Shown in pieces: positions 583 through 35,227 of a stretch of 64,000 nucleotides of DNA. The notes under the pieces are model-generated. The model was not told the origin of the DNA. It ran no database searches and saw only the letters and a program-made list of their open reading frames with translations. This DNA is from Patescibacteria group bacterium (lineage in GTDB: Bacteria; Patescibacteriota; Patescibacteriia; 2-12-FULL-60-25). Position 1 is the first letter of the stretch. Each line of letters opens with the position of its first letter. The translations under genes and the position numbers were made by a program. The DNA lies in contig JARGGJ010000006.1 in the NCBI GenBank assembly GCA_029210915.1, positions 1 to 64,000 of the forward strand, written 5' to 3'.

Positions 583-672
583 TCTATACAGACTTTCGCC
601 TTAAAGGACTTGAGTGTAGTTTTGATTGGTCAACGAGGGACGTAGGACGTGCGACGCGGGACGATCACTGTA

Positions 673-1754: not shown

Positions 1755-1832
1755 TGCGCTTGTAACGTTCATAACGTTTATCACGAGTTAAGACGTGGGA
1801 CGTAGGACGTGCGACGAGCGACGAATCTTTAT
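1755..1832. repeat. Mixed repeat: 'GTTCATAACGTTTAT' plus 'GACGTAGGACGTGCGACGAGCGACGA'
   Basis: The rplJ-rplL spacer holds a half-copy of the CGTTCATAACG family followed by family C (GACGTGGGACGTAGGACGTG and GCGACGAGCGACGA). Family C also occurs at 639-664 and 18390-18422, and inside the DUF4012 gene. Confidence 0.7.
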
Positions 1833-5232: not shown

Positions 5233-5412
5233 GGAGTCTTAACGTCATAAAGTCCTAACGTCATAACGTACAAACCAAATCCAATCCCGTTAAGACGTTA
5301 CGACGTTAAGACGAGTTCCTTCCCGTTGAATGTCATAAAGTCCTAACGTCTTAAAGTCATAACGCAGCAAACTCAGCAATCCCGTTAAGACGTTACGACG
5401 TTAAGACGTGTC
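5233..5412. repeat. 'TAACGTCATAACGT' inverted-repeat block (family A)
   Basis: Direct copies of CTTAACGTCATAAAGTCC and TAACGTCATAACG face CCGTTAAGACGTTACGACG and CGTTAAGACG, twice over. The transcript can fold into two long imperfect hairpins ending 12 bases before the tsaB-like start. Sister blocks: 15206-15312, 16674-16786, 26412-26492. Confidence 0.85.
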
Positions 5413-7836: not shown

Positions 7837-7967
7837 GAGAAGTTATAAATCATAAGATAAACACAAGCTCTATATTCCATCCGCAAGAATCGACTGAGTT
7901 TGTAAATTTTTCATATTTCGAATTTGTTTTTGATTATGACTAAAAAATTTGTGAATATTTATTTAGT

Positions 7968-8174
7968 TCATAAAGTTAAAAGTTTATAAAGTTTATAAAG
8001 CCATTCATCCCGGTAACCACTTTACAAACTTTACAAACTTTACGAACTGAATTTTTTAGTCATTTGGTCAATATTTATTTAGTTCATAAACTTGAAAGTT
8101 CATAAAGTTCATAAAGTTTATAAAGTCATTCATCCCGCTAACCACTTTACGAACTTTACAAACTTTACAAACTA
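7968..8174. repeat. 'AAAGTTCATAAAGTTTATAAAG' inverted-repeat block (family B)
   Basis: Runs of AGTTTATAAAGTT face runs of AACTTTACAAACTTTAC twice (7968-8055 and 8095-8174), each able to form a long hairpin. The two halves themselves share the flank AATATTTATTTAGTTCATAAA. Sister blocks: 14582-14678, 23087-23184, 35103-35227. Confidence 0.85.
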
Positions 8175-10153: not shown

Positions 10154-12406
10154 ATGGTGCAATCACCAAATTTTCTAACATGCCCCAGCGTTCCCGCACT
10201 ACCGCCTCCCCATGAGCCGGATTCTTCGGTTACCAAAGTCGAATCCAACGACGTTAACACAGTGGGTGACGTAGGACGAGCGACGAGCGACGAGCGACGA
10301 GGTGAGCCGAGCAAACCCTTCATCCCCCTCCGCCCCTCCGACGACATCGAACACAACCAAACCGACGTAGGACGAGCGACGTGGGACGCAGGACGTAATA
10401 CAAACGACGTAGGACGAGCGACGAGCGACGAGCGACGAGAGGAAGTTCCTAAGCTTAAACCAAAAAAGAATAGTAAACTCAAGTATACGATTCTTGCAGT
10501 TGCAATAATTTTAGGCATCCTGTTTATCCCGCCGCTTATTGCTTTAAGTCGTGCCGGCTGGTCGGGCTATCAGGCCAAGCTCTCGCTCGAGAGCATGCAA
10601 AATATGCTCGAGGCGGGCGAGTTCGATTCCGCCAAGTCCGAGGCCGGCAGTGCGCAAAAGCAGTTCGATGCCATGCAAGACTATTTAAACGGCGTTGGCT
10701 TTTGGCGCGACATGCCTTATTTGGGTACCCAAATCCGCGGTCTGCAAGACACAGCCCAAGTCAGCGCGCAAACATTGGATGGTGTTCAAGATATTTTAGA
10801 TGTTGCCGGAGCTTTGCAGGATGCTCTGTTTTTAGCCACCAAAACATCGGGCGCGGCACAGGTTGATGTTGATGCATCAAAGCGTTTGCAAGATCTAACC
10901 AAAGAAGAACGCTACGCATTGCTCTCGTCTCTCTACAAATCACTCCCCGAGATCCGCCTGGCACGCGACAAAATCGATATTGCCCTCGCCATGTGGAATG
11001 ATCTCCACAAAGATCAACTCGCCGGCCCAATCCGCGATGCCCTGGAGCCGATGACGGTTTACTTGCCAATACTTCAACAATCTTTAGAGCAAGGTGTTCC
11101 GCTTATCGAAGTATTCGTACCACTACTTGGTTATCCCAACCCTCAAAATTACGTAATAGTTACTCAAAACGCAGATGAGATTAGGCCGGCCGGTGGTTTT
11201 ATTGGAAGTGTAATCACCATGGATATCGACGCGGGTTATTACGACGATTTTGATTTTTATGATGTCTACAGTATAGATAATCCGGCTTCCGGTGTATGGA
11301 GTGAGGTTCCACCGGATCCAATCAAAGAACATCTTGGTGTTACCAAGTGGTTCATGCGTGATGCTAATTGGTCGCCTGATTTTCCTACCTCTGCCGAGCG
11401 TGTCTTGGATTTTTATGAACGAGAGCGAGCCGTCCCGCTGGGAACAGCTCCTCATCAAACAGGATTTATTGCTCTTGAACCCGGGTTCTTTGAGTCGCTC
11501 TTGGCATTTACCGGCCCGGTTATCGTGGATGGCAAAACATTTAATGCGGATAATTTTATGGATCTATTACAGTATGAGGTGGAAATGGCTCCGGGTATTA
11601 CGCAAGAAAACCGGAAAGAGCTTATGGGTTATGTTGCGGAAGAAATTATCGCCAAAATCCAAAACCTACCCAGATCTGATTGGCCAAAAGTATTGGGAAT
11701 TATAACAACCGCGCTCGATCAAAAACAAATCCTTCTCTATAATCGCGATCCTAAAATCCAATCAACCATCGACGCACGAAATTGGAGCGCTCGCGCCAAG
11801 CCCACAAACGGAGATTTTCTTTGGATAATCGATGCCAATTTAGCCGCGTTAAAAACTGATGGCGTAATGTCAAAATCAATCCAGTACACACTCGATGCCC
11901 GCGATCTCGAACATCCTCGCGCAAATGTAACCCTCACTTATCAAAACACAAACAGGCAAATCACTTGGCGCTACACTCGCTACCGCAGTTACACCCGCAT
12001 CTACGTTCCCGAAGGCAGCCAATTCATCTCCTCAACCGGTGCCATGGCGGGCGACCTCACCCAAACCGGCGGCCGTTTTGTTCCCGGTAAAGTTGATATC
12101 ATGAAAGATCTCGGCAAAACGGTTTTTGGCGCTTTTTGGGCAATCGAACCCGGCAAAACAGGCAAGCTTTCTTTTACATACGAACTCCCCAAATCATCCA
12201 TCTCATCAATTTTAGATGGCACCTACCGCCTCGATTGGCCCAAACAACCCGGTGTCGACAACGCGGAATTTAACGTAAAAATCCTGTTCCCTCAAAGCAT
12301 AGCCTCGGCTCAACCACCCGAGCCCGAAGAAAAATGGGGAGATACCAACTACGAAGCACAAGCGGGGTCACTTTATGATCAGGTGTTTAAAGTAGAACTG
12401 GAATAA
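10154..12406 (+). CDS. DUF4012 membrane protein with repeat-derived N-terminal linker
   Basis: Residues from about 110 to the end are a DUF4012 protein: one transmembrane helix (about 110-132, YTILAVAIILGILFIPPLIAL), a helical stalk, and the family core with PQNYVIVTQNADEIRPAGGFIGSV near 325-350 and a beta-rich C-terminus. Such proteins are frequent in CPR and Actinobacteria next to glycan genes; a role in envelope polymer attachment is suspected but not known. The first 100 residues are a cytoplasmic low-complexity linker in which DVGRATSDERRG (39-50) and DVGRAT...NDVGRATSDERR (71-95) are direct translations of the intergenic repeat family C. The ATG at 10154 lies 6 bases after the GT2 gene. 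Confidence 0.9.
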   Translation: MVQSPNFLTCPSVPALPPPHEPDSSVTKVESNDVNTVGDVGRATSDERRGEPSKPFIPLRPSDDIEHNQTDVGRATWDAGRNTNDVGRATSDERREEVPKLKPKKNSKLKYTILAVAIILGILFIPPLIALSRAGWSGYQAKLSLESMQNMLEAGEFDSAKSEAGSAQKQFDAMQDYLNGVGFWRDMPYLGTQIRGLQDTAQVSAQTLDGVQDILDVAGALQDALFLATKTSGAAQVDVDASKRLQDLTKEERYALLSSLYKSLPEIRLARDKIDIALAMWNDLHKDQLAGPIRDALEPMTVYLPILQQSLEQGVPLIEVFVPLLGYPNPQNYVIVTQNADEIRPAGGFIGSVITMDIDAGYYDDFDFYDVYSIDNPASGVWSEVPPDPIKEHLGVTKWFMRDANWSPDFPTSAERVLDFYERERAVPLGTAPHQTGFIALEPGFFESLLAFTGPVIVDGKTFNADNFMDLLQYEVEMAPGITQENRKELMGYVAEEIIAKIQNLPRSDWPKVLGIITTALDQKQILLYNRDPKIQSTIDARNWSARAKPTNGDFLWIIDANLAALKTDGVMSKSIQYTLDARDLEHPRANVTLTYQNTNRQITWRYTRYRSYTRIYVPEGSQFISSTGAMAGDLTQTGGRFVPGKVDIMKDLGKTVFGAFWAIEPGKTGKLSFTYELPKSSISSILDGTYRLDWPKQPGVDNAEFNVKILFPQSIASAQPPEPEEKWGDTNYEAQAGSLYDQVFKVELE
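10262..10442. repeat. Family C repeat arrays inside the DUF4012 coding sequence
   Basis: GACGTAGGACGAGCGACGAG at 10266 onward, and further copies at about 10366-10440, are the same words found between genes at 639-664, 1791-1831 and 18390-18422. Here they are read in frame as D-V-G-R-A-T-S-D-E-R-R. Neither array brings in a stop codon. Confidence 0.85.
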
Positions 12407-14581: not shown

Positions 14582-14678
14582 AAGTTAAAAGTTCATAAAG
14601 TTCATAAAGTTCGTAAAGTTGAGACATTCGTTATTATCCACTTTATAAACTTTATGAACTTTTAACTTTACGAACTTA
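14582..14678. repeat. Family B inverted repeat between mreB and the kinase gene
   Basis: AAGTTCATAAAGTTCATAAAG faces CTTTATAAACTTTATGAAC; the right arm touches the stop codon of the convergent kinase gene, so this can act as a shared 3' hairpin. Confidence 0.8.
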
Positions 14679-15205: not shown

Positions 15206-15312
15206 GTCGTAAAGTCATAACATGATGAGTCTTAACGTCATAACGTCTTAACGTCATAACGTAACAATCCACAAACCAGTACCGTTACGACGTTAAGATG
15301 TTAGGACTTTTC
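15206..15312. repeat. Family A inverted-repeat block
   Basis: AGTCTTAACGTCATAACGTC and following copies face CCGTTACGACGTTAAGATG. Between 15313 and 15400 the sequence has repeated TATGTTACATA-like words but no gene. Confidence 0.8.
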
Positions 15313-16673: not shown

Positions 16674-16786
16674 ATAGTCTTAACGTCCTAACGTCTTAAC
16701 GTCCTAACGTACGAACCAAAACCAACCCCGTTAAGACGTTATGACGTTAAGACGTTTCCCTAAAATCGTTAAGACGTTTCCCTAAA
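16674..16786. repeat. Family A inverted-repeat block
   Basis: CTTAACGTCCTAACGTC copies face CCGTTAAGACGTTATGACG, followed by a short tandem CGTTAAGACGTTTCCCTAAA repeated with one gap. It ends seven bases before the TrmB gene start. Confidence 0.85.
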
Positions 16787-18342: not shown

Positions 18343-18389
18343 GATATGTTTTCCAATGGAGGAAAACGCCTACTGATCCTCGAAAAACG

Positions 18390-18422
18390 TCCCACGTCGC
18401 TCGTCTTACGTCCCACGTCTTC
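18390..18422. repeat. Family C repeat in the leader
   Basis: Reverse-oriented ACGTCCCACGTCGCTCGTC and ACGTCCCACGTC, i.e. the complement of GACGTGGGACG and GACGAGCGACG. Confidence 0.75.
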
Positions 18423-18472: not shown

Positions 18473-20752
18473 ATGGAATTCCGGAAATGTTTGTATCTTG
18501 TATCTTGTATCTTGTATCTTGCAGTTTTCAGCTCCGCCTGTGTAGGCGAGAGCGGACCCGAGAAAACCGGTTCGCCTTCCGAGGCGGCCGGCTCTGCGGG
18601 AGCGTCCGGAGAAGCCGGTTCAGCCGGCGAATCCGGCTCCGCGGGAGCAGAAGTCGACCCCAACCATTGCAACCCTCCGGGTGCATGGAAGTGGTGCGAC
18701 TGTGCCGATGGTGCGGATGGGCAAAAATTTTGTCTGGACACGAATACTTGGTCCAGCGAATGCAAGTGCCCCGAACCCCAAGGCACCGGCGGAACCGCAG
18801 GAGCCTCCGGCTCCGGTGGAACATCCGGTGCAGGCGGAACCGCGGGAACCGGTGGAACTTCGGGTACGGGCGGAACATCCGGAACCGGAGGAACATCGGG
18901 AACCGGTGGAACTGCCGGCACGGGCGGAAGCTCGGGCACAGGTGGAACATCGGGAACGGGCGGAACTGCTGGCTCCGGCGGCACGGGCGGAAGCTCGAAC
19001 GCCTGTACCGCGGACGCCGACTGCTCATATCGCTGTGGCGCCGACTTCGTGGGTACGCAAGAGTGCGTAGGCGGACAGTTGTCCGAATTGTGCACTTGCA
19101 AACCCACACAAATCTGCAACTCCGGCGATATGCGACCTTGCCCATGTGAGACCGGCTACTCTTGCACCGAAGAGTGTACAGATGGCCAATGGTCAAACTT
19201 GTGCAAATGGGTATGGGATGGTACAGCCGGATCGGCTGGCGCATCCGGAACTGGTGGAACTGCCGGCACCGGCGGCGTCGCGGGTTCAGGTGGAACTGCC
19301 GGCACGGGCGGAAGCTCGGGCACAGGTGGTACCGCAGGAACAGGCGGAGTTGCCGGGTCCGGTGGAACGGCGGGAACTGGTGGAACCTCGGGATCAGGCG
19401 GAACGTCTGGCACCGGCGGAACATCAGGAACTGGCGGGACTGCCGGAACAGGTGGTACTTCTGGAACCGGTGGATCGGGTGGCGGAGTTGTGGAAGATGT
19501 TGATGGGGACGGAGTCACAGTCGCAGAAGGCGATTGTAACGACCAGAACTTCAACGTCCATCCAAACGCCACCGAAGTCTGCGACGGATACGACAATGAC
19601 TGCGACGGCCAAATCGACGAAGGTGTCAAAACCACCTTCTACCGCGATGCTGACGGCGATGGTTACGGCGTTGAAGAAGTCACCACCGCGGCCTGCGAGA
19701 AGCCTTCGAGCTACGCAGTGCAAGCCGGTGACTGCAACGATGCACGCTCCGACATCAACCCTGGTGCTCAAGAAGTGCCCGACAACGATGTCGACGAAAA
19801 CTGCGACGGAAACATTCAAGACCCGCCGCAACCCTTGGCCGATGAAGCTCTGCTCACGTGCTTCCTGCGCCATCCGGATGGGCTGGCTCACGATTATTAC
19901 ATCCTCGGAAAGGATGTGGATCACGAGTCACAAAATCCGGTTGAATGGGGAGATTTCCTTGGTGAGTACAACAATACTCACGCTGTACACTGGGCTAAGT
20001 TCAGTGTTCAAATCAAGGAAGGAAGCGCCTTCGAATGGAACGCGGCAGCGGACCCCGCGAATTACGACCCGAACACAAACGAGTTCTGGTCGTTCTCAGC
20101 CGTCTCCGCCACCGAGCAGTACGGTGCCCCCATCTACAAGATGAACACCTACTGCTATGTCGAGATCGACGGTATTGTCAGTTGGACTGTGCCGCCTTAC
20201 GCCAAGGATAATGGCGGAGGCTGGTACAACCTCGAGGTGATTGCGGAGCCTTCACATCTTATCACTTCAAGTGATGTTGATGGCGATGGCTACACGGTTA
20301 CCGAAGGTGACTGCTTGGACTCCGACCCCCGCGTCCGCCCCAATGCAGTAGAAGTGTGGGGCGACGGTGAGGACCAAGATTGCAACGGTAAAGACCCGTT
20401 TGCAACCGTGGTCGTCACCCTCTGTGGCCCCTCGGAGTACGTGCACCCCAAGCCCACCTTGTGGGAAGTAGCCCCGAAATGGCAGCCTCACACCATGAGC
20501 TACATTAGCTCATGCTTTGAGAAGTCATTCACCGGCTACTACGCCCCGAGGGAGTTCTACTTCGAGTGGGGTAGCCCCACCGAGTGGGATAACTCCTACT
20601 GGGGCGGAACCTGCCACGAGCTGAGTAACATCAGCGCCCGTGGTTACGGCTTCGGCCAATCAACTTCCACACCCATCCCAGTCAGTCTTTCCAAGGTGCC
20701 GACGCAGGATTCCTGCCATCGGTACATCAGCGAGAGTAAGCTGACAAACTAG
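18473..20752 (+). CDS. Secreted lipoprotein with GTGGTSGTGG repeats and MopE-like Ca-binding motifs
   Basis: A 759-residue exported protein. Residues 1-22 are a signal peptide ending SSA-C (lipidation at Cys23 likely, though the -3 residue is unusual). Gly/Thr/Ser repeats of GTGGTSGTGG type fill about 102-176 and 251-338, separated by Cys-rich modules (CSYRCGADFVGTQECVGG and others). Three metal-binding motifs follow: DVDGDGVTVAEGDCND (about 343), DADGDGYG with GDCNDARSDINPGAQE (about 392) and DVDGDGYTVTEGDC (about 600), as in MopE-type proteins and Myxococcota surface lipoproteins. The C-terminal 130 residues contain more Cys. It is markedly GC-richer than its neighbours. The hydrophobic signal core is encoded by a TATCTTG tandem repeat that also occurs between genes. 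The start is fixed by TAGGAG nine bases upstream. Confidence 0.9.
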   Translation: MEFRKCLYLVSCILYLAVFSSACVGESGPEKTGSPSEAAGSAGASGEAGSAGESGSAGAEVDPNHCNPPGAWKWCDCADGADGQKFCLDTNTWSSECKCPEPQGTGGTAGASGSGGTSGAGGTAGTGGTSGTGGTSGTGGTSGTGGTAGTGGSSGTGGTSGTGGTAGSGGTGGSSNACTADADCSYRCGADFVGTQECVGGQLSELCTCKPTQICNSGDMRPCPCETGYSCTEECTDGQWSNLCKWVWDGTAGSAGASGTGGTAGTGGVAGSGGTAGTGGSSGTGGTAGTGGVAGSGGTAGTGGTSGSGGTSGTGGTSGTGGTAGTGGTSGTGGSGGGVVEDVDGDGVTVAEGDCNDQNFNVHPNATEVCDGYDNDCDGQIDEGVKTTFYRDADGDGYGVEEVTTAACEKPSSYAVQAGDCNDARSDINPGAQEVPDNDVDENCDGNIQDPPQPLADEALLTCFLRHPDGLAHDYYILGKDVDHESQNPVEWGDFLGEYNNTHAVHWAKFSVQIKEGSAFEWNAAADPANYDPNTNEFWSFSAVSATEQYGAPIYKMNTYCYVEIDGIVSWTVPPYAKDNGGGWYNLEVIAEPSHLITSSDVDGDGYTVTEGDCLDSDPRVRPNAVEVWGDGEDQDCNGKDPFATVVVTLCGPSEYVHPKPTLWEVAPKWQPHTMSYISSCFEKSFTGYYAPREFYFEWGSPTEWDNSYWGGTCHELSNISARGYGFGQSTSTPIPVSLSKVPTQDSCHRYISESKLTN

Positions 20753-23083: not shown

Positions 23084-23086
23084 GGA

Positions 23087-23184
23087 GTTCGTAAAGTTTA
23101 TAAAGTTTATAAAGTTTATAAAGTTCGTAAAGTTTTAAGTAACTGACTTTATTAACTTTACGAACTTTCAACTTTATAAACTAT
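23087..23184. repeat. Family B inverted repeat forming the 5' leader
   Basis: GTTTATAAAGTTTATAAAG (left) faces TTAACTTTACGAACTTTC and CTTTATAAAC (right) around AAGTAACTGAC. Confidence 0.8.
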
Positions 23185-35102: not shown

Positions 35103-35227
35103 CTAGTTTATAAAGTTGAAAGTTCATAAAGTTCATGAAGTTCATAAAGTTTGTAAAGTTTGTAAAGAGGTCGTCGGGTTGATCGGCTTTACAAACTTTA
35201 CAAACTTTACAAACTTTAAAAACTATA
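35103..35227. repeat. Family B inverted repeat
   Basis: AGTTCATAAAGTTCATGAAG and on to GTTTGTAAAG faces CTTTACAAACTTTACAAAC; it ends seven bases before the next start codon. Confidence 0.82.

Follow-up and report, generated by a model that had tools for sequence, protein, structure and literature searches.

In-frame heptamer arrays in protein loops of Patescibacteria and their changing flavours among related species

Described repeats that enter genes or fill loops

The RPE-1, RPE-4 and RPE-6 elements of Rickettsia and the CGTC/GTAG REPs are dispersed repeats, found between genes and also, in frame, inside core genes, among them genes for DNA repair; in R. conorii the TruB protein is interrupted by RPE-1 (PMC3733652). 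Heptamer repeats form another group, with GGGAATC described in Xanthomonas, GGGGAYT in Nostoc and TAACTGA in Beggiatoaceae; in the described cases they lie mainly between genes or are depleted from coding regions (PMC4692102, PMC4679880). Degenerate heptanucleotide repeats, with motifs of two classes (1 and 2), occupy the P6b loop of the tRNA-Leu intron of Nostoc (PMC3488679). Substitution by short heterologous DNA segments has been described in Acinetobacter baylyi (Harms et al. 2016, as cited in PMC8116780). We found nothing in the open-access literature on heptamers inside genes of Patescibacteria.

Here we describe heptamer arrays in the genome of a Candidatus Uhrbacteria, phylum Patescibacteria (G000, 1.46 Mb in 49 contigs), starting from a stretch of 64,000 bases referred to as the window (contig C46, bases 1-64000). 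As with the Rickettsia RPEs and in-gene REPs, the arrays are dispersed and are both intergenic and in frame in core genes, and TruB is a target in R. conorii and here. RPEs and REPs are, however, palindromes of fixed type, whereas the repeats here are direct heptamers in variable number, a genome has several flavours, and overwriting can leave the length of a loop unchanged. The DNA form resembles that of the cyanobacterial STRR heptamers, because the unit is a heptamer and because those also form dispersed short tandem arrays within one genome. The Nostoc tRNA-Leu intron is the nearest analogue of a single loop with alternative heptamer classes: the variable loop of a functional molecule is filled by different classes in related strains, although that case concerns an RNA hairpin at one locus and ours concerns many protein loops genome-wide. 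The A. baylyi substitutions are alike in replacing short tracts, and are invoked below as a possible copying route.

Heptamer arrays in the window and across the genome

Three arrays of the unit GACGNNS lie in the N-terminal linker of a gene encoding a DUF4012 membrane protein (Table 1), which has orthologues in all eight congeneric genomes and whose closest named relatives are from Candidatus Uhrbacteria and other Patescibacteria. The exact sequence GACGTAGGACGAGCGACG occurs at the start of each array and all three occurrences are within this ORF; with up to three mismatches it has 12 matches in the window, against 0.03 expected from shuffles. The first-pass annotation had placed arrays in this linker and had counted two, but the heptamer forms three runs and hence three arrays. 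It was right that they keep the frame open and that they sit where extra residues are tolerated; all three start in the same codon phase within the 750-aa ORF. The array-bearing segment is predicted to be disordered, and the first long helix in the AlphaFold2 model begins at residue 108 and is likely the membrane segment.

The same annotation reported related words between genes near 639, 1791 and 18390, and we found an intergenic array at each of these places. They are one-mismatch variants, for example GACGTAGGACGTGCGACG. The possibility that they are decayed fragments of the DUF4012 gene was ruled out, because a search of the genome with its own DUF4012 protein gave no such fragments. A second flavour, TTGTATC, has 48 genome-wide matches (one for the control). 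Its array in the window codes for LYLVSCILYL, the hydrophobic core of the putative signal peptide of a lipoprotein (ORF 18473-20752). Long, glycine-rich tandem repeats of 18/54 bases lie inside the MopE-type lipoprotein gene of the window (18790-19478).

Table 1. Repeat arrays and associated features in the window, and stretches that contain the 27-base palindrome
Feature	Position	Strand	Details
Intergenic array	639-663	+	GACGTAG GACGTGC GACGCGG GACG
Intergenic array	1792-1823	+	GACGTGG GACGTAG GACGTGC GACGAGC GACG; a run of TTTATTA heptamers comes immediately after (1828-1859)
Intergenic array	18388-18419	-	Upstream of lipoprotein ORF 18473-20752
TTGTATC array (x4.4)	18491-18521	+	In frame, signal-peptide region of ORF 18473-20752
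DUF4012 membrane-protein gene	10154-12406	+	750 aa; PF13196, E 1.3e-21; carries the three arrays below
DUF4012 N-terminal linker	10154-10477	+	Residues 1-108; pLDDT < 50 (AlphaFold2 on alignment)
Heptamer array 1	10268-10302	+	GACGTAG, three GACGAGC, GACGAG; codes DVGRATSDERR, residues 39-49
Heptamer array 2	10364-10395	+	GACGTAG GACGAGC GACGTGG GACGCAG GACG; codes DVGRATWDAGR, residues 71-81
Heptamer array 3	10406-10440	+	Units as in array 1; codes DVGRATSDERR, residues 85-95
CTCCCTCCTTTCGCGAAAGGAGGGATC stretches, G000	L061, L055, L068, L072, L281, L286		Six sites
CTCCCTCCTTTCGCGAAAGGAGGGATC stretches, G007	L276, L278, L280, L282, L284		Five sites

Across the genome, the pattern GACGHRSGACG has 147 matches and GACGTAGGACG has 30 exact matches, compared with 2 and 1 for the reversed controls. 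The arrays are runs of 2-6 units of variable order and number; in the sampled stretches GACGAGC was counted 40 times, GACGTGG and GACGTAG 30 times each, GACGTGC 20 times and GACGCGG 10 times. Among the first 100 matches listed and those from earlier searches, 28 of 46 array clusters lie within ORFs of 120 aa or more and in frame, 14 are intergenic and 4 overlap an ORF edge, which agrees with the proposal that the repeat enters genes and differs from the described STRR-type heptamers, which are mainly intergenic. These clusters derive from the window and 32 stretches around listed matches (contigs C1-C33 as listed, and places on later contigs chosen via GACGTAG) and represent part of the catalogue. 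The repeat is read in sense in 17 of the 28 coding clusters, in antisense in 9 and in both orientations in 2.

Based on NCBIfam and Pfam annotations, the hosts include TsaD, TsaE, MnmA, TruB, RsmI, DnaX, LigA, RadA, PolX, DinB (two sites), and a PcrA/UvrD-type helicase (two sites). Further hosts are EpmA/GenX, MetG, PepA, PEP synthase (two sites), phosphomannomutase/phosphoglucomutase, a ClpA/ClpB-type ATPase, glycosyltransferases, and an O-antigen ligase (two sites). The array-carrying proteins are full-length conserved proteins, and the inserts in TruB, MnmA, and LigA fall in gapped or unaligned stretches of alignments to solved structures. No clear case of a conserved gene disrupted by an array was seen among the clusters examined, as expected if selection removes such events.

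Repeat periods were surveyed in 461 kb, comprising the window and 397 kb of congeneric stretches that were not selected for repeats. Period-7 arrays are the main class (19 coding and 24 non-coding), and period 14, a multiple of seven, accounts for 7 coding and 10 non-coding arrays. Periods 4-6, 8, 10-13, and 15 have at most 3 coding arrays; of the period-9 arrays, 1 is coding and 21 are non-coding. Intergenic 8-mer arrays of the GTCATAAC type (5235-5409, 15206-15262, and 16677-16786) and 9-mer arrays of the AGTTTATAA type (7965-8173, 14588-14677, 23086-23135, and 35105-35224) are present in the window; arrays of these two periods are almost never coding in the survey.

The same loops in related species

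Searches with concatenated protein pieces yielded orthologues in the other eight congeneric genomes (G001-G008). The DUF4012 linker is without an array in G003, G004, G006, and G007, carries CCCCGAA-type heptamers in G001 and GTCACAA/GTCACGA heptamers in G005, and has partial GACG or mixed words only in G002 and G008. The segments are thus missing or variable among orthologues, as the first-pass annotation had anticipated.

In the orthologues of the core enzymes, the loops are likewise either without arrays or filled with different heptamers. The TruB loop holds GACG heptamers in G000 and G007, CAATTAA in G002, ATTCGAG in G006 and GTTACAA-type units in G005. The TsaD loop holds CAAAAAT in G007, GTCACRA in G005, GACGCGC in G006 and a CCCCCTTGATAAAGGGGGG element in G001. 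The LigA segment is exactly 36 residues long in all eight species for which it was obtained; it consists of GACGAGC-type heptamers in G000 and G007, GTACAAC in G001, TTTCGAG in G006 and GGTACGM in G008, while in G002 and G003 it is not repetitive. Four flavours are thus found in five species at constant length. The abundant flavours also differ between species genome-wide. Another in-frame element, of the CCCCCTTnnnnAAGGGGG type, fills the same loops in TsaD, EpmA, and PolX of G001, in PEP synthase of G002, in phosphomannomutase of G003 and G005, and in DnaX of G008.

The loops defined by the G000 arrays are reused in other species. The count was limited to the other eight species because the loops had been chosen by G000; a period-7 array is present there at 30 of 123 species-sites. 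These loops contain 32 period-7 arrays where the remainder of the genes would lead one to expect 2.0, and this ~16-fold figure is an enrichment rather than a probability because related species are not fully independent. Periods other than 7 give 0 or 1 arrays in the same loops. The arrays in the other species are ~10 aa long, and the net length difference from array-less orthologues has a median of +3 aa (n=30) and is within one residue in 9 of 30 cases (zero in all cases for LigA). Those of G000 mostly add residues (median +8 aa, n=13), which fits insertion as well as replacement. From these net changes, the arrays both insert and replace. The phenomenon is wider than the first-pass annotation held, in that it involves several heptamer flavours, core enzymes, and replacement besides insertion. 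With close relatives using other 7-base repeats in these loops, it seems that repetitive DNA rewrites loops of proteins.

The closest genomes are only ~67-87% identical at the protein level, and donor and target arrays therefore cannot be paired. In-register homology between arrays of sister species looked plausible for RsmI and unconvincing for LigA, and was dropped. Heptamer arrays were also found beyond the genus, in further genera and families of its class, so the genus is probably not alone in having them. A CCCTAAA run in a related bacterium (L327, 10683-10715) has the same unit as the plant telomere, probably by coincidence.

Composite blocks, copying and alternative readings

A composite of heptamers, GACGTRG-GACGATTRG-GACGNGC-GACGTRG (34-39 bases, with small variations), is present at 10 loci of G000, 5 of which are in genes (TsaD, MnmA, DnaX, and twice in the O-antigen ligase). 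Copies of its core, GACGATTRGGACG, number 10 in G000, 8 in G007 and 7 in G001, and none of the other relatives tested has more than 2; in G001 the composite is located in RsmA, PheT, ComF, and IleRS. That one composite sits in different genes from species to species suggests that whole blocks are copied, beyond local slippage alone.

The composite folds as an imperfect hairpin (z -3.35 compared with shuffles), whereas for two stretches of DUF4012 arrays folding does not exceed that of shuffles (z +0.28 and +0.59). Distinct from these is a 27-base palindrome, CTCCCTCCTTTCGCGAAAGGAGGGATC (z -3.79), which is found in G000 and G007 (Table 1) and was not found in other genomes of the genus. It sits between heptamers in TruB, phosphomannomutase, MetG, and TsaE, often adjoins CGTC, and keeps the reading frame because it is 27 bases long. 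Palindromic cores are present in 20 of 33 heptamer units against 14.1 +/- 2.4 in shuffles, which is suggestive only; a hand-picked unit set that gave a stronger result was discounted. Both GTAG and GACG, which is CGTC on the opposite strand, are contained in the heptamer, but the arrays as such are not palindromic. The parallel with RPEs that the first-pass annotation drew is thus right for behaviour and wrong for the type of element: the same repeat lies between genes and in frame inside many genes and is absent or variable in orthologues, whereas a hairpin-forming unit is confined to the composite and the 27-base palindrome, and the arrays have no fixed length.

Two loci of another kind were observed. 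At L057 (2849-3283), downstream of an rnpA-like ORF, a gene for a 23S rRNA-intervening-sequence protein has heptamer arrays on either side that are oppositely oriented, and L080 (3029-3172) holds an apparent internally deleted copy of this unit. The array-flanked gene could be a carrier cassette.

Searches for enzymes that might move the arrays returned no Y1/RAYT transposase (PF01797) in G000 or in G002-G006, with matches only in G001, G007, and G008, and no reverse transcriptase (PF00078) in G000. Spread driven by RAYT/Y1, and templating by a reverse transcriptase or diversity-generating system, were rejected for G000 on these grounds. ComEC is present in all nine genomes. Given these results, we favour spread by slippage and templated copying: the dispersed arrays are probably selfish or neutral DNA, propagated by slippage and templated recombination and kept where the frame and the loop tolerate them. 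We infer that arrays are copied between sites, with new copies arising from other arrays by templated recombination. This could proceed by template switching or by microhomology-based replacement of short segments, by analogy with heterologous DNA in Acinetobacter; in A. baylyi, short tracts are reportedly replaced by copies from elsewhere that share little homology. Slippage of the heptamer would lengthen or shorten the arrays, and selection would retain only the events that preserve reading frame and fold. A dedicated transposase would not be needed, and a mobilising enzyme besides those sought may act on the arrays. Of the common units, most are free of stop codons in all frames of both strands; GACGTAG has one, on the forward strand only. 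Empty sites show no clear excess of GACG/CGTC seeds (0.0135 vs 0.0103 per base, 1.3-fold). Within the host protein, the arrays probably serve no purpose.

The composite could instead be a REP/MITE-like mobile unit moved by a transposase in trans, with the arrays as its decayed or multimerised forms, as is thought for the Rickettsia RPEs. The conserved unit order of the composite in different genes of several species and its folding point this way, as does the 27-base palindrome, which adjoins CGTC inside arrays and is missing from the orthologous arrays of phosphomannomutase in G008 and TruB in G007; CGTC-tagged REPs and RPEs are also without a known dedicated transposase (PMC3733652). We nevertheless regard this explanation as unlikely given the genomes without Y1/RAYT, the lack of visible fixed ends, the DUF4012 arrays that do not fold, and the unrelated heptamers in the same loops of other species. 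Purely local growth, in which each array starts when a heptamer is duplicated by chance within a weakly constrained loop, agrees with the position of the arrays in variable loops and with reports that heptamers are the commonest repeats of 5-11 bases in many bacteria, for which an origin by polymerase slippage was proposed (PMC4679880). It would yield a different unit at each site, and is very improbable because GACG units and the composite recur unchanged in kind at dozens of unlinked sites and species differ in which flavours abound genome-wide.

Only slightly less improbable is that the arrays are functional, as flexible regulated linkers, DNA-uptake words or protein-binding sites, the flavours being species dialects like the Neisseria uptake sequences. 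The ubiquity of ComEC, the variation of flavours between species and the reuse of loops are consistent with such a role; several flavours coexist in one genome, however, the peptide at a given site changes with strand and flavour, and many orthologues carry no array. Tandem arrays are also unlike known uptake words. An artefact of assembly or binning has to be considered for a genome in 49 contigs whose named relatives are metagenome-assembled genomes; it is refuted for practical purposes, as the same loops carry arrays in several separately assembled genomes and the arrays keep the frame within full-length conserved proteins.

A bolder form of spread by templated copying is conceivable, though we hold it only tentatively. 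Self-propagating heptamer DNA would overwrite loops, with array templates patching genes while keeping the frame and often the length, and the current flavour of a species would supplant the previous one at the same loops. If this is true, a genome-wide repeat and not point mutation sets the loop sequence in essential enzymes.

In-frame invasion of core proteins by repeats was previously known for palindromes, in Rickettsia and some REP-bearing bacteria; the arrays would show that it also occurs with heptamers, in Patescibacteria. The enzymes affected act in tRNA modification, DNA repair, and translation, and within a single genus the flavour changes from one species to the next, a scale and a turnover that would surprise a specialist. 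The arrays provide a natural experiment on the tolerance of protein loops and on the spread of short repeats without an evident transposase, and odd insertions in Patescibacteria proteins become interpretable.
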